From contig JABAKD010000035.1 of NCBI GenBank assembly GCA_012845835.1, forward strand, positions 124,001 to 188,000: a stretch of 64,000 nt of DNA, written 5' to 3'. This document shows, piece by piece, positions 11,117 through 64,000 of this stretch; the stretch's first letter is position 1; each line of letters begins with the position of its first letter. The notes beneath the pieces were generated by a model. The model was given only the letters and a program-made list of their open reading frames with translations, searched no databases and was not told the DNA's origin. This stretch comes from Undaria pinnatifida. Taxonomy: Eukaryota; Sar; Phaeophyceae; Laminariales; Alariaceae. The translations under genes were made by a program, and so were the position numbers.

Positions 11117-11124
11117 CGTAGATC

Positions 11125-18490: not shown

Positions 18491-18500
18491 CTCTGCGTGT

Positions 18501-19319: not shown

Positions 19320-19939
19320 GGGGCTGAAGCTTGTCTGAAGCTTGCCAAGCCACTGTAGTCGTACTCCATAGCAGATTCTGGCAAGCGGGCCAGAAAAATC
19401 CGCGACGCCGTTGACGCTGCCTTTGCGGTACTCGAGTGTGCAATCGAACGCGGTGACGAACTCAAGCTACCGCTAGACCCATGCATTGAGGGTCCCCACT
19501 TTGTCAATGCTCTCCTATGCCTTGTGGCCGGAGGATATGCGGAACTTTGTTCCCCACAGTACCCTCGGAGGCGTTGAGGAGCCCACAAAATGCCGCCGGT
19601 CCCCAAATCTAGAGGATCTCAATGCCTCTCCGAGTCGAGCGTTGCTCGACTGATGTACGCGATTTTCATAGTGAACAAAACGTCATCCAGCGTCACAGTA
19701 CCCCCGACGAAACAGGGGCCGTGTTCTAACAATGCAAGGTCAGGACCGACGCCAGAAGCTATCTCCAAACCTTCACGGCCTTTGGTTGGCCAACGCGTCC
19801 GAGAAATATGTCGGAAACTCCGAAGAGGAAGCCTTGCGAGCGCTGGCCGCTGTTAACGGCCCGGCCGCGGCGCGGATGAGATTTCTCGGTTCTTTTAGTC
19901 GCAGTGCAGGTGCGGAACCCACTAGGGGAGGTGGGTTGC
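19235..19939 (-). other. Gypsy copy L, region downstream of NADAR
   Basis: About 700 bp homologous to 63531-64000 of copy R. On the minus strand it encodes broken frames containing DDVSFTMKIAYISRATLDSE and LTKWGPSMHGSSG-like segments that are recognisable in both copies, so they were coding in the ancestor. I cannot assign them to a family. Confidence 0.45.
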
Positions 19940-20420
19940 GCCGACCTGGTCTCACTGTCGCGAATAGCTTCGCGAACGGCAGAAAGTGCTTCGCCGAGCT
20001 AATGTTTGCTCTCCGCTGGCATGGGTTGTTGGCCCTGGGATCATCTGCCCGGAGACCAATGCCCCACACTGGGTCCAGAGGGCTGGATTCAGCCAGAAGC
20101 TCGTTGTCAGAGGTCAAAAGATGATTGTTTATGGCTGGATTCTGCGTGAATTTGTCGTAGGTGCCAGATAACACGGCGTTTTGCTTCTCCCTGTTCCCAA
20201 CACCGGAGTTCAAAGTTGCGCACGCTTCGACCGATGCGTTTGCGTGTGCTTCGACTAGGCGACGACATGATGAGCTCCACTGCTCGATAGTTTTGGAAAA
20301 CCCTGTCTTTTAGGCCATCATGTACTGCTCCGAGAAAGAATATGGCACGTCGCCCACGACAAACGACGAAGAGGACCAAGGTGAAAGATAGGATGGGGGC
20401 TGCCATAACAACACCACTTC
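19940..20420 (-). pseudogene. NADAR-domain (YbiA/PF08719-like) coding region in gypsy copy L
   Basis: Minus strand, about 160 codons. N-terminal block: SSFVVGDVPYSFSEQYMMA (SEQY at 20333-20322), matching the family's S-E-[QH]-Y-x2-A-x-K box. Middle: RAVELIMSSPSRSTRKRIGR and VRNF. C-terminal block, open from 20213: KFTQNPAINNHLLTSDNELL followed by AESSPLDPVWGIGLRADDPR (about 20100-20050), then LGEALSAVREAIRDSE in a shifted frame. These are the NADAR signatures F-x2-N, LL-x-T-x2-x-L-x-E-x-S-x2-D-x2-WG-x-G and G-x-N-x-LG-x2-L-x2-[LV]-R. Characterised NADAR proteins remove ADP-ribose from guanine or cleave N-glycosidic bonds. A stop follows SEQYMMA and there are about four frame changes, so this copy is inactive. 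Carriage by an LTR element is the unusual point. Confidence 0.85.
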
Positions 20421-20439
20421 GTCTGTCCATGGAATATTC

Positions 20440-21010
20440 GAGAGAAGAGTCAAAAGCCGTGTTGGAATTTGAGCGGCAATGTCCCCGTCTGGGAACACCA
20501 GGCTTCGGGAGCACGACGTGAATCCGAACCCGTGGTTTCTCGCCTCGGTTTTTTTCTCTCGTTGGCGGGGAAACGCGAGAATCCGCTCCAACTGCACCCG
20601 AAAAAAGGCACAAACCGACGGTGCCAACCCGTCAGTAGCCTCGTTGGATATTTGGGTCTGCAATGTCCCCTTCTGAAACACCAGTCCTCGGTTCATTGGG
20701 CCTGTAGTGACCCCTTGCGGGAACACCAGGCCTCGGGGGCATGGTGTGAGTCCTAACCCGCGGTTTCTCTCCTCAGGTCCTCCTCATTCGCTGGCGGAAA
20801 CTCGCCTTCACTGCACCCGAAAAAGAGTCCGACACCGACGGTGCCAAGCCGTTGGTAGCCTCGTTGGGCGTTTGGGTCTGCAATATCTCCCTGTGGGAAC
20901 ACCAGCCCTCGGCACTTTGGGCTTGCAGCATCCCCGTCTGGGAACTCGTGACCTCGGGAATACGGCGCGAGCGCAAACCCACGGGTGGTCGCGTCGTGGC
21001 CTTGTTGCTC
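20440..21010 (-). repeat. ~230-bp tandem repeats upstream of NADAR, copy L
   Basis: Two to three diverged units, each with cores such as GGGACATTGCAGACCCAAA, GCTACTGACGGGTTGGCACC and TTTTCGGGTGCAG (read on the minus strand), plus a shorter internal repeat around GGTGTTCC. Copy R has the same array at 62470-63020. The units are translatable but in different frames. Confidence 0.75.
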
Positions 21011-22379
21011 TCTGGCGTAAAATCGCAATAAAACTGCTTTAACTGCGCCCAAAGGGGCACGGGGCTCGAAGTTGTTAGTGCTTGACGAGAGGCGCGATTA
21101 TGTCGTATCTTCACGGGAATAGCGTCCAGCTGATCGGGCTGGAGGCCGTGGCGTCACCAATGGCCCCTGGCGCAGTGTCGGATCTCGATCCTGTGCCACT
21201 GGGGCAGACGTAGCCTGAAACACGTGGTTTAGCGTGGTAAAAGACAAAGCAGGGCCCGTAGACTCTGTGGGCGTCTTCTGTAGGTGGGCTCGGGGACGTG
21301 GCAATAATGATTTTACCCGAGAAGGCTCTTTTTCGTTAGGCCTCGTGGAGAAGGGAGACGAGGTAGCTAATCTTGTCGACTCCTCCTTGATGGAAAAAAA
21401 TATATGTAACGCTCGCTGCTATCGCGAGCAAACAACAGGTCGAACCTCGCAAAAGATCTCGGTGTTTTACTGTTGGCCTTCCCACACCTCAAACCGACCG
21501 TCATCTTGTGGTCAGGAAAAGTGTTTGAGGGTCGGCCGTCCCACACCTCAAACCGACCGCCACCTCCTGGTCAGGGAGAGGTGGGTATGAACACGTTCGC
21601 GTCAAAAGGCAACGCGCCGTCACCGCAGCTATAATGCTGCGCGACGCGTACCTGGGAGGAAGCGCGCAAAAAGCAGGCTCCCGTGCCATAGTTGATGGAG
21701 GCGGCGTTTGGAGCGCGTACCCCCATTGCCGAGTTTATGTCGCGGCTGAGGGGAATGAGAGGAAGGTCGCTGGAAGCGCGCGTTCTAACCGTTGGAACAA
21801 TATTAACTGGCTGGCGGGAACTACGTTCGAAGTGGTAGTGACCGCCGGCGGTACTACGCAGCGATAATCGCCCGCCGACGGCGTAGGAGCCCGTGAGCTC
21901 TTGACAGAGGCAATCTGTGCTGCGTTATTGGACAGGCTAGCAACAGAACACGAGCATCTTCTGAAACTAAAGAATAGTATCCCCGACAGTGTTTTCGACG
22001 GTGCCGTACCGCGGCCGAGCTGTCGATTGCCGGTACGGAATGTGCCAGTATGGCGCGTGAGTATTTCTGCCCGGGTTATTTGTGGCTCCAAAGCGCATTC
22101 GAGGAGCAGGAGCGGGGGCAGAAGAGGCGGCCGAGCGCGGGATACCACCATCGTGATCCGACGTGTATGTGGTATAGTTGTGACAGTTTACCTGGCCCTG
22201 GTCCTGGTGGTACCCTCGCGATTGACCTGAAAGGTGGCGATGATTTTTGTTGTGGTTGTTCGGTCGAGAAGATTTGCCGTCTTGGTGGTAGCAGACCATG
22301 CGTGTTTGCCATCGTCGGTGTGCGTCATCGTCGCCAAATTGGCCAAGTCCAGGGTTCAAGCAGCCACTCGCAGTAATGA
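21011..22379 (-). other. Gypsy copy L, gag-NADAR interval
   Basis: Homologous to 61035-62469 of copy R. It contains a roughly 62-bp tandem duplication (21475-21590, CACACCTCAAACCGACCG twice) that copy R also has (61895-62015). Reading frames are fragmented. Ser/Arg/Pro-rich translation suggests a gag tail or linker rather than an enzyme. Confidence 0.5.
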
Positions 22380-24471
22380 AAGGATGCCTAAATGCTTGAT
22401 GGAAAGGTTGTCTTTTTGCCAATTGAGGCAAAGCCCCGGTTTTCTCGGAGGGCATCAGCTCGAGGTGAACGGAGGCCGCTCCAAAGGGGAGGGTCGTCTG
22501 TCTTAAACGAGGCGTTAACGGCGAAACCTTCTTCAAAATGATGCTCTTCTAGTGGCCAGCAGTTCGACGTGTGGTCAAGCCAAGGCCCCGATGAATCATC
22601 GACGGACATGACAGTTGGATGATGGCTCGATCCCCTCTGCCTCGAACGCGACTGGGACGGCATTCGGCCCTGATTGCGCCCGTGATCGGCGGGCCGGGCC
22701 CCCGACGAGGCGGATGACCGCGCTCCCGTCGAAGAAACAGGCAGAGAAAAAATGCTTCGCCGTTGACGGCAGGTGTCTTATTATGCGCTTAGTCACTGAA
22801 AGCCCGCCATATAGCATCCAACGTAGCGTGTGGCCGCGGGTCCGTTGCCTTCAAACCAGGGTACAACGCAGGCATGAGAGCCGGAGATTTCTCATTCGTC
22901 GCCACCCGAACCACCTCCAACACCACATCCGGCGCCGGAAACGATGCACGCTCACTCCCCGTAGCGGTCGACACAAGTACGCGAAGCTCCCGACTGAAAT
23001 TAGAAAAAGGCGTGCCGTTACACATTCCAAAACTATGCAACTTAGTGTAGCTCTCCTCCGTGTCAACCCCGTCGAAGTGTATAATCAGCAGACGCAACAG
23101 GAGGGTGAAAGTCTCAGGCCCAGTTGCTCCTCCTGCAATAGCTCTCGACATTTCTTGCCTGCTACCACGGCCACCTCGCTGTGGTCCGTGCTCGAGAACG
23201 AAGACGAGCGGGAGGAGGTTGACGAGCCGTTCCACGCGGAACATCCTCTCGCACCGTTCCTCCGCCCTCCTTTGCCTCCGCCAGAGCTGCGGCCACTGCC
23301 CCGGTTGTTGGACCAAAGCTGCTCCCTCGGCGGCGCCCTGAGCCACACCAGCATCCGATGTGCCTCCCCCGCCTCCACCACCGCTGTCACCAACGCGGCG
23401 GCGGTGGTGGTCGCCACCCCCACCGTTTTTGTCGCCACCCCTACAGTTTCGGTCCCCGCAGTTGCGACTGTCGCTGCGTCGCTGTTTCCCCCGGTTGCGT
23501 TCCCCCAACTCTTCCTCCAGGATTCGGCCAAAAGACAGGGTCGGGAGCCTCGTCGTGGGCCATCAGCAGGGCCTTGACGAGGGCAAGCGTCGGGGCGGCT
23601 CTTGTCTGTCCGGCATAGGGCGTACAACCCATGCAAGTCCAGGCCGCCTCCACTGAAAGGGCGTCCACTTGCCGCGACGCCGGTCTCTCTGACGTGAGGA
23701 GGGCGCAGGCCGTTTCCACTACCGTGGTCGCCAACGCTGAGGAAAAAGTTTACCCTGGGTGCAGACGCCATGCACGCGATGCTGCCCTTGAAGAAAGCGT
23801 CGTTCCTGGGTCGTGGTTGCTGGGATGCGGCACCCTGCGGGCGCGTCGAAGGCGAGGGGTCCGCGGTAGCTCCCGCCGCAGCCGACGCAACTGATTGGGT
23901 GAGGGCTTGTTGGGCCCTCTCCGCTACCAGGAACGCCTCCCGCGCAGCGGTCTTCGTCTGCTCAATATCTTCGTCAAACCGACGTCGGCATGCTTCACGC
24001 CGGAGAATCGTCTGGTCGGCGTCGTCAAGCGCCCACTGGGCCCGCGCCGCCGCATATGCCAAATCCAAGTGGCCGGCATGGGCGCCCCGGCTTCGGGAGC
24101 TCTGGGGGTGCGCTCTGCTGAGCGCTGAGAGCCAAGGTGGCGCGGTGGTGCCCTATCGAGTGCGTGGGGGGCAGCTGGTGGCTCTCCCCCGGGGCTGGCG
24201 AGAGCTGGCGTCGAGACGCCCCCGAGTCCGGTGGAGGTTGGTTCGTCTTCGTCTCTGCGCGAGCCGGCGAGTCGACCCCCTTGGTTGGTGGGTCCGGTTG
24301 GTGGCATGGTGGTCCGTCTTCTCTCTCGTCACCGGAACCCGCCGCCAGTGGTTTCCCCCGTCTCGAGTCGCGGGTCTCGAGCGAGCTCTCCCTGTCTCGT
24401 GGGCATCCAGGTTGGGATGCGTGGAAGACCTCAGCCTCCCTCGAGTAGCCCGCTTCCTTACTGGTAGACAT
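22380..24471 (-). pseudogene. gag: Gag of gypsy copy L
   Basis: Minus strand. The ATG at 24471-24469 starts MSTSKEAGYS, matched by MSTRKEAGYS at 58988 in copy R, which supports this start. The first part is Pro/Ser/Arg-rich, then a helical Ala/Arg/Glu-rich segment (AYAAARAQWALDDADQTI), then a capsid-like block in another frame (22789-23508: LLLRLLIIHFDGVDTEESYT and SRELRVLVSTATGSERA). The zinc knuckle that copy R retains is destroyed here at about 22440-22395: of the C-x2-C-x4-H-x4-C ligands only the first Cys remains. Frame changes occur at about 24050 and 23100. Confidence 0.75.
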
Positions 24472-24659
24472 GTTGTGGCTTGTTGTCTGTACGGAGGGCA
24501 GCGAAAGGAGGGGGTGTGGGGGAAGGTGGCGGGATGGGAACGACGCGTAAAGAAGCTGTGGAAGCAGATATATTGTTGTGGTGTCCCTGCTGCAAGTAGC
24601 GATAATCTGTGTGCCAGCAAGCAGCAAGATATGGGCCTCGACTCCGTCCAGCATCAGTG

Positions 24660-27751: not shown

Positions 27752-27921
27752 TATTGTAAAGGTTTTGAGCGGGGACACGGAGTGTCCCCTGCAGGTCTGC
27801 CAGTTGAGCAGGTCCTCGGAGAATACTCACTTTCTTAGCCATCGTAGAGACGTAGCTTTATTCGATTCCACCAGAGCCCCGGATGGCTCCTGAGATCAGA
27901 GGCACGTGCCTCCGACCTATT
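27752..27921 (-). repeat. Truncated 5' LTR of gypsy copy L
   Basis: About 170 bp of the 268-bp LTR, including the GCAGGTCTGCCAGTTGAGCAGG and GATTCCACCAGAGCCC blocks shared with 14772-15040 and 48851-49118. Homology stops at about 27921, so the promoter half is missing, and sequence D1 begins within about 30 bp. Confidence 0.8.
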
Positions 27922-28021
27922 TCAATCCCTAATACCAAACGACAAAACTGTTTGGAATGTTCTTTAGTTAGGCTCGAAAAACGTCGAAAAAGGGTATTAC
28001 GTTGCCGGCCTGGCTCTCAAC

Positions 28022-48850: not shown

Positions 48851-49118
48851 TGTTAATATACGGCCTCGAAAGGCCTATAATTATCCACATTCGAAATAAT
48901 TTGATGGGTTTCGTATGATAATGTGGGCGTTATATATTCAGAATAATCAGGAAATAGATTGGAGGCACGTACCTCCGATCTCAAAAGCCATCCCGGGCTC
49001 TGGTGGAATCGAATAAAGCTACGACTAAGAAGGCTAAGAAAGTGAGTGCTCTCCGAGGACCTGCTCAATTGGAAGACCTGCAGGGGGCACTCTGTGTTCC
49101 CACCAATAACCTCACACA
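48851..49118 (+). repeat. 5' LTR of gypsy copy R
   Basis: 268 bp, TGTTAATATACGG to CTCACACA. A TATATA box (48931-48936) precedes an AATAAA (49012-49017) by about 80 bp, a plausible promoter and polyadenylation signal defining U3 and R. It abuts PBS TGGCGTCGTC. Confidence 0.9.
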
Positions 49119-49128
49119 TGGCGTCGTC
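49119..49128 (+). promoter_or_regulatory. Primer-binding site of gypsy copy R
   Basis: TGGCGTCGTC directly after the LTR end CACACA; identical in copy L. It would pair with the last ten bases, ending in CCA, of a tRNA whose 3' end is GACGACGCCA. Confidence 0.75.
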
Positions 49129-49857: not shown

Positions 49858-50026
49858 TGTTAAAAGTATGAACCTTGGATTCAAATCTAAGTTAATGCGC
49901 AGTCTATTTGCGCGAATAAGATATGCAGTTGAATCTTAAGTTGAATCTTACGTTGAATCTTCGATGTAACCTAGATATAAACGTAGATTTGAGTATGTTA
50001 AGGTTGTCCCGTTGTCCCGAAGCGAC
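49858..50026 (+). repeat. 5' LTR of Copia-3 (truncated)
   Basis: It matches 54648-54806 from TGTTAAAAG through GTTGTCCCGTTGTCCCG. The 3' LTR continues another 290 bp to its CA end at 55099, but here the homology stops, so this LTR has lost its 3' part or the other has gained sequence. Confidence 0.85.
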
Positions 50027-50084
50027 TTCTCATTGAAGTTTGTCACATCTTACCGGCAAGTTTGAGAGAAACCTCCATTGAGCG

Positions 50085-50190
50085 GGCTACAGCATCAGCT
50101 ACAGCATCAGCATCAGCATCAGCTACAGCATCAGCATCAGCGGTCAGCATCAGCATCAGCATCAGCATCAGCGATCAGCATCAGCATCAC
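50085..50190 (+). repeat. CAGCAT/CAGCTA hexanucleotide microsatellite
   Basis: About 100 bp of CAGCATCAGCATCAGCTA-type repeats directly upstream of the likely gag ATG; when translated it extends the gag frame N-terminally with His/Gln/Ser repeats. Confidence 0.9.
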
Positions 50191-50191
50191 C

Positions 50192-51310
50192 ATGGGAGAG
50201 TCCACGAAAGCAGGTGATGCGGTAGACAAGCTCGTTAGAGCTCTCAACGGCAACTTTAATGGGCTTAAGTTCGACGTATGGAAACGCACGGCTCAGTCCG
50301 TGATAAGTATGCGTCATGCCGGAATCTCTGATATCCTGGAAGGGCGACCTTGCCCCGAGCCCGAACTAGTTAGTCCTCGTCCATCTTCTAGAAGAAGTAG
50401 GCCTTCACGAGCTGTAACTCGCAGCCAGGCCGCTGACGAAACGGACATTCAGTCCGGGGAAACACCCCCGGCTGATACGGCAGAAAATGTACAGCCGGAC
50501 GCAGGGAGTACTCCCGTGGTCACGGCGCATCTGCCACCATCACCTTCAGGATATTCTACACTCCCAGCCGCAACATCAGTTTTATGGGCCACGGATGGCA
50601 ACATCTCGAATTTGGAAGACATCAAGCAATGGCACCGCGACAATCGTCTTCTGTTCGACTTCTTGTTCCTGAGTACATCGGGAGCGGCGGCCAGCTTTCT
50701 TCTACAATTCAAGCCCAAACGAGGTGAACTTGCGAATGGAAAAGCTGCTTGGGATGGTATGGTAAGAAAATATCAAAATTCCACCCGCCAACGTAGACGT
50801 ATACACAAACAACAACTATCGCATATGGTCATGACGGATCGGCAAGACCCAGACGTGTTTATAAATGAAGTATACTATTTACGGGATGAATTGGTGGACA
50901 TGGGAGAGGTATTCAACGATGCCAGCATATTGGACATAGTGCTGGAAGGACTCACGGATGAACATCTGCTAATAAAATATAGCGCCGAAGCAGATGATGA
51001 CTTCACACTCGACCGAGCTGTGATAACAAGGCGTAATATGTACGCGAATAGAGCTATGCGAAACGGGCCGTTGCGAAAAGCGAAGGGGCGTGAATCTGCT
51101 ATGGTAGTCACGTCAACACCCTCTGCAGTAGTGACCTGTTCACACTGCATAAAGCCAGGCCATCGATTCCAAAATTGCTTTAAACGCAAGGGAAAGATGT
51201 CGGGGAAGAAACCTCCCCCGACACCTCGAAAAATTCGTGGTGTGGCCTGCATAATACCGATCGCCACGATAATAGCGACTGTCGGTCTCGAATGCGGGAC
51301 GACAATATAA
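50192..51310 (+). CDS. gag: Copia-3 gag
   Basis: The likely start is ATG 50192 (MGESTKAGDAVDKL); an upstream in-frame ATG at 50078 would add only microsatellite-coded residues. The 372-residue frame is intact. It contains a Pro/Ser/Thr-rich insert (residues about 60-130), a Copia gag core (WHRDNRLLFDFLFLS; KAAWDGMVRKY; FINEVYYLRDELVDMGEVF; ILEGL-like VLEGLTDEHLL) and a C-terminal zinc knuckle CSHCIKPGHRFQNC (51137-51178; C-x2-C-x4-H-x4-C). Gag forms particles and binds element RNA. The protease frame overlaps its end by 19 bp in the -1 register. Confidence 0.85.
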   Translation: MGESTKAGDAVDKLVRALNGNFNGLKFDVWKRTAQSVISMRHAGISDILEGRPCPEPELVSPRPSSRRSRPSRAVTRSQAADETDIQSGETPPADTAENVQPDAGSTPVVTAHLPPSPSGYSTLPAATSVLWATDGNISNLEDIKQWHRDNRLLFDFLFLSTSGAAASFLLQFKPKRGELANGKAAWDGMVRKYQNSTRQRRRIHKQQLSHMVMTDRQDPDVFINEVYYLRDELVDMGEVFNDASILDIVLEGLTDEHLLIKYSAEADDDFTLDRAVITRRNMYANRAMRNGPLRKAKGRESAMVVTSTPSAVVTCSHCIKPGHRFQNCFKRKGKMSGKKPPPTPRKIRGVACIIPIATIIATVGLECGTTI

Positions 51311-52243
51311 CCCGTCGCCCTCGTCCTGGTCAACAAAATGGCCGGCATAATAACAACCGCAGCGCTCACGCCAATACCGCCACAACTCCAGCTTCAACAA
51401 CGCAAATGGAAGCTTACGTCCCAGAGATACATGCTCCATCCACTACTACTGCGGCTGCGACTACAGCAGCTACTTCTACGTCCTTCGCGACTCCTTCCTG
51501 TCCATCCTCACTTCCAGTTGGTATAGGTTATTCTTTCATCGCCGCACCTCCGATCGAGATCGCCGCGCAGCCCGTCGACTTCTCCATGACTGCGGACAGC
51601 GGAGCGTCTAGCCACTTCATCGACAATCAGCTTCTACCGGGCATTGAACACAAAATGAACCACTACGTGCAGCTGGACCCTCCCGTAATAATCAACGTAG
51701 CGGGAAACCATCGCCTTTATGGCGTTGGTCAAGGGGTTTTGGTCGTACAAGTGTTGGACCACATAGGCTCTAAGCACTCGGTACAGCTTCCTGTCACGAT
51801 CGTACCTACGCTAGGCAGGCACTTATTTTCGGGGGGATCAGCTGCTGCGAGAGGGGTCGCAATGATCATCGCCACGCAGTCGAATCTTGACATGGGTGCT
51901 TTTGCTATACCCTTACGTAAGGACAGCCACTGCCCTTCTTTGTATCAGCTCGACCTCACCACTGGTGCAACCAGCCGAACGCCTGAGACAGCGTTCCCGA
52001 CCATCTCCGGCAAAAACTTTAAACCGGAAACCGTCCTCGCTGTTCATGCTTCGACGACTCCTAAAGCGACGACTTCCCTGCCTGAAACCATTCCAGCTAA
52101 CATCGGGCACAGGAAGCTGCTGGGTCATCCCAAGCAGGTGATAGCCGAGGTGAGAAATATCCCAGAATGTGGGGCAAATTTTTCAGACACTTTATCGGCG
52201 TGTGATACGTGCAAGATCATTAAGAGCACTCAACAGGAACACC
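51292..52243 (+). pseudogene. pol: Copia-3 protease and GAG-pre-integrase
   Basis: Frame in -1 register to gag. It has the aspartic protease site MTADSGASSHFID (Asp-Ser-Gly at 51595-51603), a second hallmark PTLGRHLFSGG, and the start of the pre-integrase zinc domain: HRKLLGH (H-x5-H) and CDTC (C-x2-C) near 52205. A poly-T run and the retroposon at 52244 interrupt the frame right after KSTQQEH. The -1 overlap with gag could be translational frameshifting, but most Copia elements have one frame, so a mutation is more likely. Confidence 0.85.
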
Positions 52244-52436
52244 TTTTTTTTTTATCCTCCGGCGGATGGGGAAAAATAAAGCTTTAGCTCACCACACTTC
52301 GACGTATTTTCATACGCGTCGTGTGCCGATTTAACTCAGTTGCTTTCGCAGCCCAACGCTAGCTGGCGCACCCTTCGGGTCCCATTGTAGGTATAGCGTA
52401 AGCTGTCCCTGTCAGTGGTCTTCGTTACAACCCCGG
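52244..52436 (-). mobile_element. A-tailed short retroposon (SINE-like) inside Copia-3
   Basis: It is flanked by perfect 10-bp duplications CAGGAACACC (52234-52243, 52437-52446). Its left end on the plus strand is ten T, so on the minus strand it ends GGAGGATA(A)10. The 3' 66 bp match the (TA)n-tailed copy at 36084-36150. The 193-bp body has no coding capacity. Length, tail and long TSD fit a SINE or truncated LINE; no clear A and B boxes are seen in the head. Confidence 0.85.
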
Positions 52437-52950
52437 CAGGAACACCGTAAGATATTGCGGCCTAACCTTTCCAGCGAACATACAAGACTGGTGAGTACTG
52501 ACCTGCTAGGATACGCCGACATGGCAAAATGTACCGACGATCACAGCAGGGTAAAAAGTGGCTCCTTCATCGAAGAGGTGCCTTCCGTTCAACCAACAGC
52601 AGACTCGGCCACTTCTCAAGTAAGAGCGCGTCAGCTGGTCCTACAACGCCAAGGATCGCCAAAACAGCAGTTCGATAACGTTTCGCAGTGCACCAGCAGG
52701 GCTCTCAGAATGGACAAAACAAACCGTCCGGTATCTACTTCGGTACCCAACACCTACGCGCAATCTATGGCCTCACCACAAGCGGGAGAATGCAAACCTT
52801 CAGCGACCTCTGCTGGAAGGTCAACGACTTCAGCACGGAGAACTCCTTCTAAGCTCCAACACCTTGAAGTCGCAACTACAGCTCCGGCTCGCAAGACCGC
52901 CTTTGACCATAGCGACGGCCTTGTAAAATATCTCAGGCAACCTCCATGAT
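52437..52950 (+). pseudogene. pol: Copia-3 integrase remnant
   Basis: The reading continues from before the retroposon: HTRLVSTDLLGYADMAKCTD and DHSRVK give the first integrase Asp in STDLLG (about 52500). Further on the frame loses similarity; YGLTTSGRMQTFSDLC in another frame may be the decayed region of the catalytic Glu. The second Asp block is not recognised. No functional product. Confidence 0.7.
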
Positions 52951-53557
52951 CACAAAAAAAATCTTTGTTTCATGGAGTTCCATACGAAACTGCGGCGTTC
53001 CATAAGTGGGAAAAAATCAACCCTTTTTCTGATTCAGGTCTGAGCAGGAATAATTTTCAGATACAAATATGATTCCAGTCAAGCTTTGACACGTCGAGGC
53101 CGCGTCGTCGCTGTCTGTGCATGCGCGCAAAGCAAACGATACCTACAGGGGGCAATGCCTAAGGTAGAAAGGCGAAGTGTGTATAGTATGTCTTGAGGAG
53201 CGTACACAGGCAGCTAATCCACGCTGCGGTATAAGCCAGTGCAAGCCTCGCACATACATGCGTATTCGTACGTGCGTTTTATGGGCCCATGTCTCGTCTC
53301 AGTGGTGTGGCCCACGAAAGGCCGCATGCACACGTACGGAGCGCAACTGAAGATTATTACTCTCGGTACTATACTGCACCTGCTACACACCAGGCTATAT
53401 GGTAGGACAATATGTACTCTCCGTCCGGAATTCAGCACGCTGCTGTATTTATTCGTGAACCTTCCGCATGCTGTACGTCTCCAGTCCCGAGGTGCCACAT
53501 CTTCCGCGTATCCTACCAAACGGTAAAAAAGATATAGCCAGAATATAGCACTCTACA
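52951..53557. other. Copia-3 interior, unassigned
   Basis: The position where reverse transcriptase would start. Short frames on both strands only. Sequence around 52970-53160 may be decayed integrase C-terminus. Nothing supports RT. Confidence 0.4.
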
Positions 53558-53893
53558 GCAGCATTGCACTCGTTGCCTAGACAACTACCACGGCCGTGCG
53601 TGACATTCTGATGGACAGGCAACCTAGCCAACACCCGTTCCACGCTCGTAGTCAACACAATAAGGGACATGGCGGCACAGAGCGGCTGTAATCCCTTGCG
53701 GCATCGCACCCAAAACTCTGTTTTTTGCAGCATTGCACTCGTTGCCTAGACAACTACCACGGCCGTGCGTGACATTCTGATGGACAGGCAACCTAGTCAA
53801 CACCCGTTCCACGCTCGTAGTCAACACAATAAGGGACATGGCGGCACAGAGCGGCTGTAATCCCTTGCGGCATCGCACCCAAAACTCTGTTTT
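53558..53893. repeat. 169-bp tandem duplication
   Basis: Two units, almost identical, start at about 53558 and 53727 with GCAGCATTGCACTCGTTGCC and end CCCAAAACTCTGTTTTTT. Only a few differences are visible, so the duplication is recent. No TG..CA ends and no frame with a known domain. Confidence 0.92.
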
Positions 53894-54647
53894 TTTTCCC
53901 TTTAGACTAGTCTACATACGATAGGGGTTTCCACAAAAATTCCACGGGCTTCGCCCGCGGAATTAAATTATAAAAAGCTGGCCCGGTACATCCCAAATTT
54001 GCCGCGTGCTATCGGACTTTTCAATCATCGACGAACCGCGATGTACCGAGGACGGAGAAGCGTGTTACGCACAAACCGAATAGGCAAGCGTGGTTAATTT
54101 ACAGCTGCGACCTTTGTTCGTTCAATTGTTTATTTGTTTCTTCTTATTGGGATATAGCTCGTTGATGGACTATGACTACACCCACCATAGTTTGTTACAG
54201 TACTATCAGTAGTACTCGTTCTACCTGCTTCCTAATGTTTTGTTTTTTGCGGGAGTACGTAAGTATATTAAACAAACAACTGAATAGTGAGAATGTTTTA
54301 TTTTGTCGTGATGGACACTTGTCCACAATTCTCTTTATTTGTCTAGTATTGTTTATTTATTTGGTACAATTCAGAAAGCGTGTTTAAAACCCAGTACACG
54401 AATCTTTGCGTTTTATCCACTAGGTAAGGTATTTATCGCTGATAATTACACCAAGCGTAATTTTCATACTTATCTTTCCTTGTAACGTTTTATTTTTTGT
54501 AAAATGTGTGGATAACATGGATACATCCATATTGACGCGGTTTATACACCGGACCGGACATGAGACTCATTTGATTTTGATTTTTTTACGAATTTGTTTT
54601 CTAAGTATGAGGTTTCTCTAGCAATCTGACTTCGCATTATGGGGGGG
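53894..54647. other. Copia-3 3' region
   Basis: AT-rich, no convincing gene. A hairpin lies at 53943-53969 (AATTCCACGGGC, loop TTC, GCCCGCGGAATT; one mismatch). Ends in the G7 polypurine tract. Confidence 0.55.
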
Positions 54648-55099
54648 TGTTAAAAAGTTAAACCTTGGATTCAAATCTAAGTTAATGCGCAGTCTATTCG
54701 CACGAATAAGATATGCAGTTGAATCTTAAGTTGAATCTTACGTTGAATCTTCGGTTTAACCTAGATATAAACGTAGATTTGAGTATGTTAAGGTTGTCCC
54801 GTTGTCCCGGTATTCTACCGTACTACGGGCATTGTTCCGTGATGATCAGGTCAGGTGGTGATGCAACCCACCATGATCGCTCTCCCAACTCTCCCAACTC
54901 TCCCAACTCTCCCAACTCTCCTTCTCTTCCTTCTTTCTCTGCTTTCTTCTCCTCTTTTTGGCCTCAAGCGCCCTCTCCAAACTATCCTTTTTCTTTCTTA
55001 TCACAAGTGATCTTAACAGACACTTCGGTGCCACCTCCGCATCTCTTCGCATAGAAGACAGAGCCTTCACACAACCATTGTGTTCACTGGCTATTCACA
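54648..55099 (+). repeat. 3' LTR of Copia-3
   Basis: 452 bp, TGTTAAAAAG to GGCTATTCACA, followed by the TSD copy CTCTA. It contains a CTCTCCCAA tetramer-like array (about 54878-54920; four units of CTCTCCCAA). Confidence 0.85.
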
Positions 55100-55104: not shown

Positions 55105-58100
55105 GGAGGTCATGTCGAGGCTCCTTCCATGTTGTCCTCCCTGGGAAGGAACAGACGGTGCTCGTGGAATATTTGGTCTTTCTCGTTTGGCGATTTTTTC
55201 CAGTACACGCGTTATCGTATGGGTTTCAGTATATATATACGTCGATCCGTCTTGCGCGTCGAACAAACTGCTGTGCTCCCTTTCTGCTGAAATTAGTACA
55301 GCTACTAATTTGACGCAACCCGGACCCCTCTCCGATCTTTCGCGATCAACAGCGTTCCACTGCGTCACGTAGCTTCAACCACCATCATGTTCTCAGCGCT
55401 ACAAACTACAGTGCATTATAATGGGCTCGCTTTCAATACATGCCATATACCGCCAAATTATCTGCTGTAGAAGTCGCTGTACAGCAGCCGAGCCGCCTAC
55501 TTTGCTCTTGCCCATCTACCACATAGCTCGACTCTTCACTGCCCCAGCGTCCACAGTTACAGCACTGCAGCTCTGACACCCTCCGCTGCTGTGCGAATGC
55601 TCCTTCCAAGTTCGATTCGAGAGGTTTTTTCGTCTTGGCCCCCCCGTGACTAGAACTCGAATTTAGTGAACGCTGAAACTCTGTGCTGGCTTTTTTGGGC
55701 AAGGCTGTCGGCGTGTGCGATGCCCTATATTCCACCATTCATGGGTACGCGGGGGATACCACGTTCTGTGTGGGCACGGCTGCGCTTGGGCGGCACTCTG
55801 CACTGCTGTCAACGCAACTGTCCCTTTATAGTGCGGTCGGTGTGGGTACGGAATTTGTTTTCAGCTGTCCAGGCGTTAGGCCGTCTTCCTACCGGTACAT
55901 GGGCTGCCCTTCCACCATGTTGCTAGGATAAATGCTGCAGTATTTTTTTGCAGCTGTCACGAAGGATACTGTCCGTTGCAATGCGGTTTACAGTTGCCGG
56001 AGACGCTGAGCACTATACGTTTGGCGCAAACGCTGCCTTTCTGCTGCTGTTGGTACATAGGCTGCCCTTCACGATGCTGCTAGGGTCTATGCTGGCATTT
56101 TTTTTTTCTCTGCACATGTTCCGACAGCTACTGCCCGTTACAAAGCAAGCCATCCCACGGTAGGGTTGCAGCAGAAAGTCCATGAGCTCCTCACATGAGC
56201 AACTCAATATTTCACCCCAAAAATGACTTCGAAGGCATTCGTTTGCACAACCCGATCAAGCTTCTATGCCTTAGGCCTAAAAAACATGCACTCGTGAAAT
56301 TACTTTATTGACCGGCAGTTCCTCAAATGAGGAGCTCAATCGCTCAGGGACATTTTGGCGCATAAAGTGCAACCCCTACCTTGGGATGCCTCGAGCGTTT
56401 ACTACAGTTCGCGGAGATACTGAGCTTTACAGCTTTTAATCGTGCAAGTGGGGATCAGCTCGTTGGAAGCGGTACTTGGGAGCAAACAGCCTTTTTATTC
56501 GGCTGCGGGCGTACACACCTTTTCTACAGCTCGTCAAGGTATTATACTACCCTTTTTAAGGCGGTTGGTGCTGTCGTCAGCCGTGGTCACAGGAGCAATC
56601 TTGCAGCAATCAGCACTACTGTAGGCTTGACCGTCCCTCTATAGGCGGTCGGTGGGGGAACTGCGTTATTTGGACGCTATACTACCCATCTTGGTGCGGT
56701 TGGAATTGCCGTTACCTGTTAACACAGCAGCGATACTACAGCGAGCAGCACTACTGTGGGCGCGACCGCCCCCCTATACTGCGGTCGGTGGGGGAACTGC
56801 CTGTTCAGGGGTTATACTGCCCATTTTTGTGCGGTTGGTATTGTCGGTACCTATGGGCACAGCAACGATAATGCAGCGAGCAGCACTACTGTAGGCGTGA
56901 CCGTCCCCCTATAGTGCGGTCGGCGGGGAAACTGCTTTGTTCAAGCGTTGTACTGACCTTGTCCTCTGATTGGCACATGTACAACCCTCTACTGTGCTAC
57001 CCTCCCCTACACTACTGTTTGAGCGGATGCTGCCCGTTTTTTTTTATACGGTTGGCGACGCGATCCTCTACTGTTCCTCCCCCTACACTACCGTTGGGGC
57101 ATGCTGCCCGTTTTTAATACGTAGGCGGCGCGATCCTCTACTGTGCTACCCCCCCCTACACTACTGTTGGGGCAGATGCTGCCCGTTTTATATCCGCTTG
57201 GCGGCGCAATCCTCTACTGTGCTACCCCCCCCTACACTACTGTTGGGGCAGACGCTGCCCGTTTTATATGCGCTTGGCGGCGCAATCCTCTACTGTGCTA
57301 CCCTCCCCTATACTACTGTTGGGGCGGATTCTGCCCGTTTATTTTCATGTACGGTTGACGGCGCGATCCTCTACTGTGCTACCCCCTTCCTACACTACTG
57401 TTGTGGCGGATGCTGCCCGTTTTTGTTTTATACAGTTGGCGGCGCGATCCTCTACTGTGCTACCCCCCCCCTACACTACTGTTGGGGCAGATGCTGCCCA
57501 TTTTTTAAACGCTTGGCGGCGCGATCCTCTACTGTGCTACCCTCCCCTATACTACTGTTGGGGCGGATGCTGACCGTTTTTCATACGCTTGGCGGCGCGA
57601 TCCTCTACTGTGCTACCCCCCCCTACACTACAGTTGGGGCGAATGCTGCCCGTTTTGTTTTGTTGTACGGCTGGCGGCGCGATTCTCTACTCCCTACACT
57701 ACTGTTGGGGCAGATGCTGCCCGGTTTTTGTACGGCTGGCGGCGCGATCCTCAACTACTGTGCTACCCCCCCCTAATGTACTGTTAGGCAGATGCTGCCC
57801 GGTTTTCTTAATACGGTTGGCGGCGCGATCCTCTTCTGTGCTACCTCCCCCTACACTACTATTAGGGCAGATGCTGCCCGGTTATTTATATACGGTTGGC
57901 GGCGCGATCCCCTAATGTGCTACCCCCCCTACACTCCCGTTGGGCGACCCTTTACTGTGATACCCCCCTATACAAACCTGGGATAAATGCTGCCTGTTTT
58001 GGTGCGATGGGCGTCGGCGTGTCGGGCGACCCTTTACTGTGCTGCCCCCCTACACTACACCTACGTCAAATGCTGCCTGTTTTGGTGCGATGAACGTTTA

Positions 58101-58800
58101 CGTGTTAGGCGACCCTTTACTGTGCTGCCCCCCTACACTACACCTACGTTAAATGCTGCCTGTTTTGGTGCGATGAGCGTCGACGTGTTAGGCGACCCTT
58201 TACTGTGCTACCCGACTACACTGCACCTGGGTTAAATGCTGCCTGTCTTGGTGCGATGGGCGTCGGCGTCTTGGGTGACCCTTTACTGTGCTGCCCCCCT
58301 ACACTACACCTACGTTAAATGCTGCCTGTCTTGGTGCGATGAGCGTCGACGTGTTAGGCGACCCTTTACTGTGCTGCCCCCTACTCTGTGCATGGGATAA
58401 ATTCAGCCTGTTTTGGTGCGATGGGCGTGGGCTTCTTGTGCAACCCTTTACTGTGTTACCCCCCCTACACTGCACCTAGGTCAAATGCTGCCTGTCTTGG
58501 TGCGATGGGCGTCGGCGTTCTGGGCGACGCTTTCCTGTGCTACCCCCCCCCGCGCCTAGGTTAAACGCTGCCTGTTAAGTGCGATAGGTGCAGACGTACC
58601 TTTACTGTGTTGCACCCCCTGCTCTGCGGTTAGGGTCAGTGCTGCCCATTTTAAGCCCCTTTTACTGCGGTTCGTGCGGGCGTTAGCCGTATACCCTGCG
58701 GTCAAACTGGGCGCTGCTCTTGTGTTTCAGTTTCGGTTGATGGTACCCTTCTTACCGCTGTCCTCCTTTATACGGCTAGCTGGCGTGGCTGCTACCATCA
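55105..58800 (+). repeat. 5' leader with expanded VNTR arrays, gypsy copy R
   Basis: Unique leader (55105-55930) is homologous to 27003-26160. Then come about 125-bp units (CTACAGTAGTGCTG-type cores as complement; 56590-56940), about 12 units of 70-82 bp with GGCGGCGCGATCCTCTACTG and ACTACTGTTGGGGC cores (56990-57960), and about eight units of about 80 bp with GGCGACCCTTTACTGTG and AAATGCTGCCTGTTTTGG cores (57940-58560). Long reading frames across the arrays (e.g. 268 codons at 56970) result from the repeat period and have no domain. Confidence 0.88.
56147..56390. mobile_element. 244-bp MITE in the leader of copy R
   Basis: Copy L is uninterrupted at this point (complement of about 25955-25990). 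The insert begins GCCATCCCACGGTAGGG and ends CCCCTACCTTGGGATGCC, an imperfect inverted repeat of about 17-25 bp. Inner repeats GAGCTCCTCACATGAG and CTCAAATGAGGAGCTC are also inverted. The target duplication is not clear (possibly AAGC/GAGC). Confidence 0.7.
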
Positions 58801-58987
58801 CTGATGCTGGACGGAGTCGAGGCCCATATCTTGCTGTTTGCTGAAGCACAGATGTACCACTACTTGCAGCAGCGACACGACAACAATATGTCTGCCTCTA
58901 TAGCTTCTCTACGCGTCGTTCCCATCCCGCCACCTTCCCCCACACCCCCTCCTTCCGCTGCCCTCCGTACAGACAACAAGCAATAAC

Positions 58988-61034
58988 ATGTCTACCAGAA
59001 AGGAAGCGGGCTACTCAGGGCAGGCTGAGGTCTCCCACGCACCCCAATCTGGATGCCCACGACAAAGAGCTCGCTCGAGATCCCGCGACTCAAGACGGGG
59101 GGGGCCACCGGAGGCGGGTTCCAGTGACGAGACAGAATACGGAGCACCATACCTCCACCCGGACCCACCAACCAAGAGGGTCGACTCGCCGGCTCGCGCA
59201 GAGAAGAAGACGGACCAACCTCTACCGAACTCGGGGGCGTCTCGACGCCAGCTCTCGCCAGCTCCAGGGGAGCCACCAGCTGCCCCCCCTCTGCGCTCGA
59301 CAGGGCACCACCGCCGCCACCTGGGCTCTCCGCGCTCGACAGAGCGCCACCCCCAGAGCTCCCGGGACCGGGGCGCCCATGCTCGCCCCTTGGACTTGGC
59401 ATATGCGGCGGCGCGGGCCCAGCGGGCGCTCGAACACGCCAACCAGACGATAGCACGCCGACGTCTGTTTGACGAAGATATCGAACAGGCGAAGACCAAT
59501 GCACGGGAGGCATCCCTGGTAGCGAAGAGGGCACCACGAGCCTTCGCCCAATCAGTTGCGCCGGCTGCGGCGGAAGCAACCGCGGCCCCCTCGCCTTCGT
59601 CGCGCCCGCAGGGTGTCGCATCCCAGCGACCATGACGCGGGAACGACGCCTTCTCCAAGGGCAGCGTCGCGTGCATGGCGTCTGCACCGAGGGTAGACTT
59701 CTCTGCGTTGGTGACCGCAGTGGCGGAAACGGCCTGCGCCCTCCTCACGTCAAAGAGGCCGGCGTCGCGGTGAGCAGACGCCCTTTCAGTGGAAGCGGCC
59801 TGGACTCGCATGGGTTGTACGCCCTATGCCGGACAGACGAGAGCCGGCCCGATCCTTGCCCTCGTCAAGGCCCTGCTAATGGCCCACGACGAGAACCCCG
59901 ACCCTGTCTTTTAGTCGAACCCACAAGGAAGAGTTGGCGGAACGAAACCGGGAGAAGCAGCGACAGTCGCGACAGTGGAGATCACAACTGTGGGGGTGGC
60001 GGCAAAAATGGTGTGGGTGGCGACCACCACCACCGCCGCGGGGGTGACAGCGGTGGTGGAGACGGGGGAGGCGCATCGGGTGCTGGTGTGACTTGGGTCG
60101 CCGCCGAGGGGGAAATTTTGGTCCAACAACCGGGGCAGTTCGCCGCAGCCATGGCGGAGGAAGGGCGCGAGATGAGGTTCAGCGTGGGACGGCTCGTCAA
60201 CCTCCCCCCGCTCGTCTTTGTTCTCGAGTACGGACGACCACAGCGAGGTTGCCGTGGTAGCAGGCAAGAAATGTCAAGAGCTATGGCAGGAGGAGCATCT
60301 GGGCCTAAGGCTTTGACCCTCCTGTTGCGTCTGCTGATGACGCACTCCGACGGGGTTGACACGGAAGAAGGCTACACTAAGTTGCATACTCTTGGAATGT
60401 GTAACAGCACGCCATCTTGTGGTTTCAGTCGGGAGTTTCGCGTACTTGTGTCGACCGCTACGGGGAGTGAGCGTGCTTTGTTCCTGGGGCCGGATGTGGT
60501 GTTGGAGGTGGTTCGGGTGGCGGCGAATTAGCAATTTCCGGCTATCATGCTTGCGTTGTACCCTGGTTGTAAGGCAACGGACCCGCGGTCATACGCTTCG
60601 TTGGATGTTACATGGCGGACTTTTAGTGACTAAGCGCATAATAAGAAACCTGCCGTCAACGGCGAAATAGTTTTTTTCTGCCTGTTTGTTCGACGGAAGT
60701 GCGGTCATCCGCCCCGTCGGGGCCCCGGCCCGCCGATCATGGGCGCGGCCAGGGCCGAGTGCCGTCCCAGTCGTGTTCGTGGCAGGCGGGATCGAGCCAT
60801 CAATAAACTGTCATGTCCATCGATGATTCATCTGACCCTTGAATTGATCACACATCGAACTGCTGGCCACTAGAATAGCATCATTTTGAAGAAGGTTTCG
60901 CCGTTAACGCCTCGTTTAAGACAGACGGCCCTCCCCTTTGGAGCGGCCTCCTTTCACCTCGCGCTGATGCCCTCCGAGAAAACCGGACGCTTTGCCCCAA
61001 CTGTCACGAAGAAAACCATTCGTTCAAGCATTGT
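58988..61034 (+). pseudogene. gag: Gag of gypsy copy R, intact zinc knuckle
   Basis: ATG 58988 (MSTRKEAGYS) is matched in copy L. The first frame (58988-59635, 215 residues) is Pro/Ser/Arg-rich and then helical (AYAAARAQRALEHANQTIA). It continues in another frame (59632-60531) with a Gly-rich stretch and a capsid-like block (ALTLLLRLLMTHSDGVDTEE; SREFRVLVSTATGSERAL). After stops at about 60531 and 60630 the CCHC zinc knuckle CPNCHEENHSFKHC is intact at 60993-61034. Gag would assemble particles and bind RNA. Several frame changes inactivate it. Confidence 0.78.
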
Positions 61035-62469
61035 AGGCATCTTTTCATCACTGCGAGTGGCTGCTTGAACCCTGAACTTGGACAGCTTGGCAAGGATGAC
61101 GCACACCGACGTTGACAAATACGCATGGTCTGCTCTACCGCTGAGGCGATACCTCTTCTCGCCCGAACAAGAAAAAATGTCGCCATCTTTCCGGTCAATC
61201 GCGAGGGTACCACCAGGATCGGGGCCAGGTAAACTGTCACAACGATACCACATACACGTTGGATCACGACGGTAGTATCCCGCGCTCGGCCGCCTCTTCT
61301 GCCCCCGCTCCTGGTTCTCAATTGCGCTATGGAGCCACCCACAACCCGGGCAGAAATACGCTCGCGCGCCAGCCTGGCACATTCCGTAACGGCAATTGAC
61401 AGCTCAAGGGCGGTACGGTACAGCACCATCGACAACACTGTCGGGGGGCAACCCTTTACGCTTTAGAAGATGCCCGTGTTCTGTTGCTAGCCTGTCCAAT
61501 AACGCAGCACAGAGAGCCTCTGTCAAGAGTCCACGGGCTCCTACGCCGTCTGCGGACGATTCTCACGGCGTGGTACCGGCGGTGAGAACTAGCGCTTCGA
61601 GCGTGGTTCCCTCCAGCCAGGTTTTATTTTTTCCGACGGCGAGAACGCGCGCTTCCAGCGACGTTCCCCTCGGTCATGGTCTGAGTTCGGCAACGGGAAC
61701 CGTGCTTCCAGCGCCGTTTCCGTCAGCCGCGGCATAAACTCGGCAATGGAGGTACGCGCTCCAAACGCCGCCCCCATTAACCATGGCACGGGAGCCTGCC
61801 CTTTGCGCGCTCCCCCCCAGGCACGCGTCGCGAAACAATATAGCTGCGGTGACGGCGCGTCGCCTTTTTACGCGAATGTGTTCATGCCCCCCCCTCCCTG
61901 ACCAGGCGGTGGCGGTCGGATTGAGGTTTGGGACGGTCGACCCTCAAAACACATTTTCTGACCGCGAAGTGGCGGTCGGTTTGAGTTATGGGAAGGCCAA
62001 CACCAAAACACCGAGACCTTTTGCGAGGCTCGATCCGGTGTTTGCGCACGACAACAGCGGGCGCTCTGTCCTTTGTGCCATCAAGGAGGAGTCGACAAGA
62101 TTACTTATCTCGTCTCCCTTCTCCAAGAGGCCTAACAAGAAAGGACCTCCACGGGAAAGACCATTATTACCACCTGCCCGAGCCCCGCTTCAGAAGATGC
62201 CCACAGGGTCTACGGACCCTGCTTGGTTTTTTAGCACGCTAACCCACATGTTTTCAGGCTACGTCTGCCCCTGTGGCACAGGAAGAATATCCGACACTGC
62301 GCGACGGGCCAGTGGTGACGCCACGGCCTCCAGCCTAGTCAGCTGGATGCTATTCCCGTAATTTTGCGGATCAATCGCGCCTCTCGTCAAGCAGAAACAG
62401 CTCCGAGCCCCTGCCCCTTCTGGCGCAGTTGGAGCCGTTATCTTGCGATTGTACGCTAAAGAGCGAAGA
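61035..62469 (+). other. Gypsy copy R, gag-NADAR interval
   Basis: Homologous to 22379-21011. It includes a 62-bp tandem duplication (61895-62015, GTGGCGGTCGGATTGAGG then GTGGCGGTCGGTTTGAG). A 192-codon frame (61783-62361) and others are Pro/Ser/Arg-rich with a CPLCHQGGVDK-type Cys pair in one frame. No enzyme motif was found. Confidence 0.5.
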
Positions 62470-63020
62470 GGCCAAGACGCGAGAAAACGTGGGCTCGGAC
62501 CCGCGTCGTACTCCCGAGGTCTGGTGTTCCTAAGGGGGACAATACAGGCCCAAAGTGCCGAGGACTGGTGTTCCGAGAGGGGGACATTGCAGACCCACCT
62601 GTCCAACGAGGCTACTGACGGGTTGGCACCGTCGGTGTTGGACTCTTTTCGGGTGCAGCGAGGGCGGCTTCTTACGAGTTTCCGCCAGCGAGTAAGGAGC
62701 ACCCGAGGCGAGAAACCCCGGGTTCGAACTCGCATCTTGCTCCCGAAGCCTGGTACTCCCGGAAGGGGACACTACAGGCCCAAAGAGCCGAGGTGTCGTG
62801 GTCCCAGAAGGGAACATTGCAGACCCACAAATGTCCAACGAGGCTACCGACGGATTGGCACCATCGGTTTTTGCCATTTTTCGGGTGCAGTTAGAGCGGG
62901 TTCTCGCGTTTTTCCGCCAACGAGCAAAGAAGACCCGAGGCGAGAAACCACAGGTTCGGATTTGCGTCGTGCTCCCGAGGCCTGTTGTTCCGGACGGGGA
63001 CATTGCAGGCCCAAATTCAA
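62470..63020 (+). repeat. ~230-bp tandem repeats upstream of NADAR, copy R
   Basis: GGGACATTGCAGACCCAC at 62581 recurs at 62811 (GGAACATTGCAGACCCAC), with GCTAC(T/C)GACGG(G/A)TTGGCACC and GCGAGAAACC(C/A)C(G/A)GGTTCG blocks in each unit; a partial unit precedes. The array is translatable across most of its length (62443-63033). Confidence 0.85.
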
Positions 63021-63057
63021 ACACGGCGTTTGACCCTTTTCTCGAATACTCCTTAAA

Positions 63058-63530
63058 GTGGTGTTGCTCTGGCAGCCCCCATCCTATTTCCCACTGTGGT
63101 CCCCTTCGTCGTTTGTCGTGGGCGACGTGCCATATTATTGCTCGGAGCAGTACTCGATGGCTGAAAAGACCAGGTTTTCCAAGACCATCGAGCAGTGGAG
63201 CTCATCATGTCGTCGCCTAGTCCAAGCACACGCAAACGCATCGGTCGAGGCGTGCGCAACTTTGACTCCGGTGTTGGGGACAGGGAGAAGAAAGCACCTT
63301 GTATCCGACACCTACGCCATATCCACGCAGAATCCAGCCACAAAAAAAACACCTTGTAAGCTCTGACAACAAGCTTCTGGCTGAATCCAGCCCTCTGGAT
63401 CCAGTGTGGGGCATTGGTTTCCGGGCGGGTGATCCCAGGGTCAACAACCCATGCCAGTGGAAAGCAAAAATTAGCTTGGCGAGGCACTTTCTGCCGTTCG
63501 CGAAGCTGTTCGCGACAGTGAGACCGGGTC
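63058..63530 (+). pseudogene. NADAR-domain (YbiA/PF08719-like) coding region in gypsy copy R
   Basis: Homologous to the copy L domain. N-terminal block SSFVVGDVPYYCSEQYSMAEK (SEQY at 63142-63153) is in the first frame. HRAVELIMSSPSPSTRKRIG and VRNFDSGVGDREK follow in a second frame. AESSPLDPVWGIGFRAGDPR (about 63380-63430) is in a third, and LGEALSAVREAVRDSE (about 63478-63525) in a fourth register. The break just after SEQYxMAEK-T/A-R and the one between CQW and LGEAL are at the same place in copy L; others are private. The family acts on ADP-ribosylated or N-glycosidic substrates; this copy is not translatable as one protein. Confidence 0.85.
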
Positions 63531-64000
63531 GGCACACCCGGCCTCCCCTAGTCGGTCCCGCACCTGCACTGCGACTGCAAGAACCGAGAAAGATCGTCCG
63601 CGCCGCGGCCGGGCCTTTCACAGCGGCCAGCGTTGCTTCCCTTTCGGAGTTTCCGACCTATTTCTCGGGCGCGCTGGCCAACTAAAACCCGTGAAGTTTT
63701 GTAGACAACTTCTGGCGTCGGTCCTGACCTTGCGCTGTCCGAACACGGCCTGTTTCGTCAAGGGTACTGTGACACTAGACCACGTTTCGTTCACTATGAA
63801 AATCGCGTACATCAGTCGAGCAACGCTCGACTCGGAGAAGGCAATGGTCTCCCCACGGTTTGGGGACCGGCAGCATTGTTTGGGCTCCTGAACTCCTCCG
63901 TGTGTACTGTGGGGAACAAAGTTCCGCCTATCCTCCGGCCGCAAGACACAGGAGAGCATTGGCAAAGTGGGGACCCTCAATGCACGAGTCCAGCGGCACC
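63531..64000 (+). other. Gypsy copy R downstream of NADAR, cut by window end
   Basis: Homologous to 19939-19480. Broken frames include VSFTMKIAYISRATLDSEKA (63790-63850), also recognisable in copy L. Continues past the window, where the integrase should lie. Confidence 0.5.

Follow-up and report, generated by a model that had tools for sequence, protein, structure and literature searches.

Decay of a YbiA-type NADAR domain in Ty3/Gypsy retrotransposon relics of the kelp Undaria pinnatifida and its constraint in copies with reverse transcriptase

The stretch of DNA analysed here (the window) comprises 64,000 nucleotides of Undaria pinnatifida, positions 124,001 to 188,000 of contig JABAKD010000035.1, and contains two decayed copies of a long terminal repeat (LTR) retrotransposon, copy A on the minus strand and copy B on the plus strand (see the table). 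Both carry the remains of a NADAR domain (PF08719). In copy B, an earlier note had placed NADAR motifs in order on the plus strand at 63058-63530. The order and the strand hold, but the motifs are distributed over three reading frames: SEQYSMAEK and LGEALSAVRE share one frame, RAVELIMSSPSPSTRKRIG lies in a second and LAESSPLDPVWGIG in a third. The open NADAR of another genomic copy matches this region at 92 bits, while the best of 200 letter shuffles reaches 20.4 bits, which rules out a chance match. Because frameshifts split the domain, two of the four scanned frame pieces of copy B match PF08719 at only 22.9 and 15.1 bits (cut-off 35.1), and the other two do not match. In copy A, one of three pieces exceeds the cut-off (19776-20309, 46 bits, E 8.9e-12). 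A Nup85 match to one frame lies below its own cut-off and is dismissed as chance.

Neither window copy contains a reverse transcriptase (RT), and the protease region is gone or nearly so. The two copies are about 85% identical over 5.8 kb, and the LTRs have diverged by 11.0% in copy A and by 16.7% (41/246) in copy B, where a 232-bp unit is also repeated at 62535-63015. The working enzyme that the note envisaged is not to be expected from these copies: they are dead remnants of a subfamily without RT, and in the reading proposed below their frameshifted NADAR has lost its function.

Complete relatives are found elsewhere in the genome, across which our searches span 511,146,479 bases. In a six-frame search with PF08719, the best 150 of 1454 candidates were scored and all 150 lie above the cut-off (best E 1.4e-49); among them, nine matches sit in open frames of 2473 codons, one in a frame of 2451 and five in frames of 2371. 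We inspected two copies of family 1 end to end, on contigs C30 and C18. The C30 copy spans 15.46 kb between identical 267-bp LTRs, and its NADAR matches PF08719 at 175.7 bits; the LTRs of the C18 copy are 99.6% alike over 274 columns. By eye, the two copies are flanked by 4-bp duplications (TATA, in an AT-rich stretch, and CTAC), their primer-binding site (PBS) starts TGGCGTCGTCG, and a polypurine-like tract, AGGGTGGGCTAG, directly precedes the 3' LTR. Together with the TG...CA ends of the LTRs, these are the features of a Ty3/Gypsy LTR retrotransposon, and the comparison confirms the LTRs and PBS that the note ascribed to the enclosing element. Part of the C30 leader is filled by an 84-bp unit repeated 20.3 times. 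Searching with the family-1 LTR (best 40 of 1762 candidates scored) returned 42 matches of 97-100% identity. Since LTRs are identical and copies nearly so, the sequences suggest that RT-bearing family 1 was recently active. Some LTR pairs lie only 0.8-4 kb apart, as would be seen in very short LTR-flanked derivatives (C30:8698339-8699434, C2:9237268-9239177, C25:7095617-7099620).

In the C18 copy, gag runs open for 1019 codons, contains a single CCHC knuckle, recognised by motif, and has no Pfam match; in the C30 copy gag occupies two frames. The order in family 1 is gag, a TGA codon, 407 residues without a Pfam match, NADAR, 113 residues and the protease motif LLDTGS, followed by RVT_1, RNase H, Integrase_H2C2 and rve, all four identified by Pfam. 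Knuckle and protease by motif, and RT, RNase H and integrase by Pfam, thus stand in the Ty3/Gypsy order. A Chromo trace at the C-terminus is weak (E 0.038, 14.3 bits against a cut-off of 25.1). A complete NADAR in a Ty3-type element, as the note supposed, therefore exists in these sister copies, where NADAR, protease motif, RT and integrase share one open frame; as to its question whether an intact copy has gag in one frame with them, gag is in the same frame, but a TGA separates it from NADAR and the rest of Pol. This TGA is located at the motif PGTFRTGN*Q in seven of eight family-1 loci, the eighth (L001) having a different upstream sequence, and on C22 a family-2 copy has it at PGTFRTN*R. 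It is kept in window copy B and replaced by CGA in copy A. Its retention in families whose RT is about 80% identical suggests readthrough of the TGA between gag and Pol.

Both window copies skip from position 2630 to position 4718 of the locus L010, with identical junction letters, and have lost protease and RT through this deletion. Across the genome, 431 sites match the junction (32 bases, at most 3 mismatches; 197 + 234), against 0 in a backward control; copies A and B are thus members of an abundant subfamily without RT, which complete elements presumably mobilise in trans. In families 1 and 2, by contrast, each of the 40 long stretches, which were chosen for open NADAR frames, has RT. L165, a family-3 copy, is without RT through a different deletion.

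We compared copies A and B with ten further RT-less copies, six of them picked for a NADAR match beside the junction and four not. Nine of the twelve share the loss of one base at NADAR position 402, which puts the last helix out of frame. The equivalent of W89 is a glycine in all eight fetched copies whose frame is readable that far and, as read by eye, in copies A and B. In L174 the frame is kept through the whole domain, but W89 is missing and E125 is replaced by V. Departures within the RT-less set are spread evenly over the three codon positions (116/119/110, p 0.86), whereas the majority differences from family 1, some of which may belong to the family-1 side, favour third positions (23/14/40, p 0.001); differences fixed in all RT-less copies (8/3/12, p 0.07) are too few to tell. 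Likewise, NADAR differences between A and B are even (17/15/15, p 0.87), and changes common to both relative to family 1 are not (17/13/36, p 0.0013). The gag and integrase pieces of A and B follow the same pattern; the C-terminal piece differs between A and B unevenly (27/40/53, p 0.016). These counts indicate that NADAR was constrained in the ancestral lineage and is decaying without visible constraint in these RT-less copies. In persisting alongside RT and degenerating where RT is missing, NADAR behaves like a replication enzyme acting in trans, as far as the sequences allow.

The NADAR of the elements is a PF08719 domain of the YbiA subfamily, and its predicted model has the YbiA fold (structure matches by Foldseek, realigned with VIA). 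Among 60 element NADARs, chosen for open frames, the active-site residues E43, K50 and E125 are present in 57, 57 and 58; at position 125 the other two have G and K. All three residues are present in representatives of four NADAR lineages with mutual identities of 42-69%. The test for purifying selection across copies that the note had called for is positive: in 120 of the 1770 pairs among the 60 (at least 130 codons, dS 0.35-1.6, mutually non-independent), the ratio of nonsynonymous to synonymous substitution rates (dN/dS) has a median of 0.195 and a range of 0.13-0.54, and lies below 0.5 in 118.

Starting from the anatomy, the conserved active site, the predicted fold, the purifying selection, the RT-less subfamily and the NADAR decay observed above, we propose, tentatively and at somewhat less than even confidence, that NADAR is packaged with Pol and clears ADP-ribose adducts from the RNA or cDNA of the element, and that the window copies are dead, RT-less and mobilised in trans. 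In brown algae, a Ty3/Gypsy lineage carries a YbiA-type NADAR as the first recognisable domain of Pol, directly before the protease. NADAR would be made only when the ribosome reads through the TGA after gag, and would be packaged together with integrase and RT, in amounts equal to those of RT. There it may remove ADP-ribose from guanine, or a like N-glycosidic adduct, from element RNA or single-stranded cDNA, which would keep reverse transcription or integration unblocked. The window copies belong to the high-copy RT-less subfamily, presumably mobilised by complete elements. We prefer this reading because known NADARs cleave guanine ADP-ribose and the NADAR here tracks RT. In the passages concerned of PMC11543638, NADARs including one of the YbiA subfamily remove ADP-ribose from guanine bases, and the position equivalent to E125 is E in the YbiA type, D in BC4488 and H in phage NADARs.

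Several observations weigh against this proposal. The protease is recognised by the motif LLDTGS, and its piece has no Pfam match. The family-2 copy on C61 has no equivalent TGA, its upstream region being broken by other stops. Among the 60 NADARs, E43 is lost in three, K50 in three and E125 in two, and a family-3 copy has R instead of W133. Between families 1 and 2, dN is 0.517 for NADAR and 0.182 for RT. E. coli YbiA works on riboflavin intermediates (PMC11543638, in the part concerned), so the substrate is unreadable from sequence. Searches of the genome for host ADP-ribosylating or alarm enzymes covered DarT and PARP; there is no match to DarT, and a single PARP exon lies above the cut-off, which does not reveal a guanine ADP-ribosyl transferase. 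At the level of sequence, counter-defence and de-ADP-ribosylation of element nucleic acid are both possible.

The losses of E43, K50 or E125 in 8 of 60 NADARs, together with the faster evolution of NADAR than of RT, would suit a structural or passenger domain whose chemistry is irrelevant. We consider this improbable, since the three residues are kept in the four divergent lineages and dN/dS is 0.15-0.37 in 14 bootstrapped pairs, with upper limits of 0.26-0.58. Identity between families 1 and 2 is 49% for NADAR, 80% for RT, 64% for integrase and 53% for the protease region. As dN/dS is low and dN exceeds that of RT, NADAR is constrained yet faster-changing than RT, about like the protease region.

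Other substrates are conceivable. NADARs of phage and other DNA viruses have been proposed to cleave small ADP-ribose or NAD derivatives of a host alarm system, such as cyclic ADP-ribose or ADP-ribose phosphates (PMC9503650, in the passages concerned), and the nearest viral folds to our model include many phage and giant-virus NADARs; the element might be spared a host response in the same way. We regard this as unlikely, for a Pol domain behind a TGA would be scarce and packaged, and its substrate would more plausibly be bound to the particle than free to diffuse. NADAR may instead process the RNA intermediate itself, for example an NAD-derived cap or end. PMC12477816 offers such processing in general terms as a hypothesis for Ectocarpus elements, and NADARs occur in nidovirus replicase polyproteins; in the cited literature, in the parts that deal with NADAR, no cap or end substrate is stated, and we rate this idea as rather unlikely. 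We give least credence to a house-cleaning role of NADAR on riboflavin-like intermediates or damaged nucleotides. Among NCBIfam models, TIGR02464 (riboflavin biosynthesis intermediates N-glycosidase) scores best with E 1.6e-44, and NADAR lies directly before the protease motif, a position comparable to that of the dUTPase of betaretroviruses, but there is no known reason for an algal retroelement to clear riboflavin intermediates.

Returning to the clearing of adducts from element nucleic acid, we speculate, with little confidence, that brown algae tag retroelement nucleic acid with guanine ADP-ribose as a defence, and that a Ty3 lineage packages an eraser in Pol. Such an eraser would act in trans, so that RT-less copies riding on full elements lose their NADAR, and P0238, a polyprotein of a distant Gypsy-type element with NADAR in the corresponding slot, would have acquired the domain independently to the same end. 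An enzyme with an intact active site is under selection in RT-bearing elements and decays in copies without RT, which makes it testable whether eukaryotic retroelements must strip ADP-ribose from their own nucleic acid. If they must, this would hint that brown algae possess an ADP-ribosylating defence not yet known.

Elements of this kind have already been reported from the related alga Ectocarpus, and our findings extend NADAR-Gypsy elements to a kelp, which we take to represent another brown-algal order. In its relevant passages, PMC12477816 describes a NADAR-carrying Gypsy lineage in Ectocarpus (e.g. Gypsy-12_Ec32) with a C-terminal chromodomain, suggests a bacterial origin of NADAR, and reports NADAR also in ORF1 (open reading frame 1) of an oyster Tx1 long interspersed nuclear element. 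We liken the Undaria elements to that lineage through this description; in Undaria, the weak Chromo trace is what is seen of a chromodomain. The main text of PMC12477816 contains no mention of Undaria, kelp, Saccharina, Laminariales or catalytic, and its 'purifying' concerns another matter; relative to the passages concerned, the gag/Pol TGA, the selection test, the active-site check and the RT-less subfamily are additional. Beyond PMC12477816, we found no publication on NADAR-Gypsy elements among the papers listed, judged by titles and abstracts, a coverage outside which most subscription journals lie. PMC7290008 was rejected as a NADAR paper, since 'nadar' there is an author's name.

Among known NADARs, that of Phytophthora nicotianae (8bau) is 30% identical, and the passages concerned of PMC11543638 do not assign it to a retroelement; bacterial E. 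coli YbiA (2b3w) is 26% identical in the structural alignment. At position 93 the family-1 representative has K, whereas those of families 2, 3 and 4 have R. DarT1-associated NADAR antitoxins have an aspartate (PMC11543638, same part) where the kelp element NADAR has glutamate, E125; with this and no DarT match in the genome, the elements do not belong to DarTG1. Nidovirus replicase polyproteins likewise place NADAR beside a viral polymerase, but nidoviruses are positive-strand RNA viruses and their named rows are 17-21% identical to the model. In P0238, NADAR directly precedes a match to an aspartic protease, and RT, RNase H and integrase follow in this order; its RT is only 36% identical to that of family 1.

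A protein search with the NADAR piece returned 1567 relatives, and a longer Pol piece found nine proteins with NADAR in a long chain, of which P0235 and P0238 also have RT. In P0239-P0241, NADAR shares one chain with PF03747, which we take to be the ADP-ribosylglycohydrolase family, and in two of the three also with PF10021; perhaps two ADP-ribose erasers are joined in one protein. In P0242 (1501 residues), the NADAR at 942-1091 is the sole Pfam match above its cut-off. Short NADAR proteins with a Cys/His-rich start occur in Ectocarpus, Pylaiella, Scytosiphon and Hapterophycus. This N-terminus is conserved in the Ectocarpales proteins P0110, P0120, P0121, P0101 and P0133, which are perhaps host genes. 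A stand-alone host NADAR like P0110 has no clear counterpart in the Undaria genome among the best 150 of 1679 candidates, although an intron-split gene could escape this search; the top rows belong to family-1 elements, with identities near 52% that rise to as much as 57% in shorter alignments. P0116 is 77% identical to a Nannocystis NADAR and 61% to family 1.

A tree of 40 rows places the NADAR of family 1 with that of family 3 and with other Gypsy-type and Ectocarpus NADARs (92/90), while families 2 and 4 stand apart with weak support (91/41). It also joins P0130, an Ectocarpus NADAR, to P0235, a Gypsy-type Pol (99/93). A single ten-row clade of families 1-4, P0234-P0236 and three tree-grouped NADARs, partly defined after inspection of the tree, is not rejected (p 0.415), and the same holds for one enlarged by the five stand-alone Ectocarpales proteins (p 0.369); with P0238 added, rejection is narrowly avoided (p 0.067). 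A quick tree of 70 rows resolved poorly as well, and scans of viral contigs with P0238 and with an RT piece found no relative. Between bacteria and an algal gene as the source of the domain, the trees support neither over the other.

Features of the two NADAR-bearing elements in the window
Feature	Position	Strand	Remark
Copy A, 3' LTR	14769..15040	-	19 differences in 172 columns against the 5' LTR fragment
Copy A, RNase H, integrase and C-terminal remains	15949..19663	-	internal 250-bp duplication 16864-17362
Copy A, junction of protease-RT deletion	19664..19668	-	as in copy B
Copy A, NADAR remains	19942..20426	-	spread over frames; one piece above Pfam cut-off
Copy A, linker remains	20827..21989	-	
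Copy A, codon at gag/Pol stop position	22023..22025	-	CGA
Copy A, gag remains	22054..24596	-	
Copy A, 5' LTR fragment	27771..27923	-	LTR positions 102-251
Copy B, 5' LTR	48851..49116	+	starts TGTTAA; 83% identity with the C30 LTR (267 bp) in 270 aligned columns
Copy B, PBS TGGCGTCGTC	49119..49128	+	directly 3' of LTR; identical 10 letters in C30 and C18 copies; position from printed sequence
Copia-like element nested in copy B	49858..54809	+	foreign to copy B; end repeats
Copy B, leader	56604..58576	+	tandem arrays of 135-, 76- and 83-bp units
Copy B, gag remains	58845..61396	+	several frames; tblastn with each half of the 1019-residue C18 gag (E 1e-47, 1e-120)
Copy B, TGA between gag and NADAR/Pol frame	61397..61399	+	
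Copy B, linker, TGA to NADAR	61405..62643	+	
Copy B, NADAR remains	63055..63537	+	against family 1: four 1-base deletions, one 1-base insertion, in-frame stops
Copy B, internal-deletion junction	63797..63801	+	protease and RT removed (L010 2630 to 4718); junction letters as in copy A
Copy B, RNase H remains	63802..63996	+	copy B runs beyond the window to about C43:192079

The Copia-like element nested in copy B has 162-bp end repeats (49858-50019 and 54648-54809, 95% identical) and, by Pfam, a copia-type gag (PF14223) at 50066-51307. Apart from the two elements, a degenerate Copia-type element lies at 9146-14570 with rve and RVT_2 pieces, RVT_2 being above the cut-off in one of two, and with flanking repeats at 8332-8849 and 14144-14570. 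An open reading frame at 43025-43702 carries DUF6570 (E 1.5e-13).
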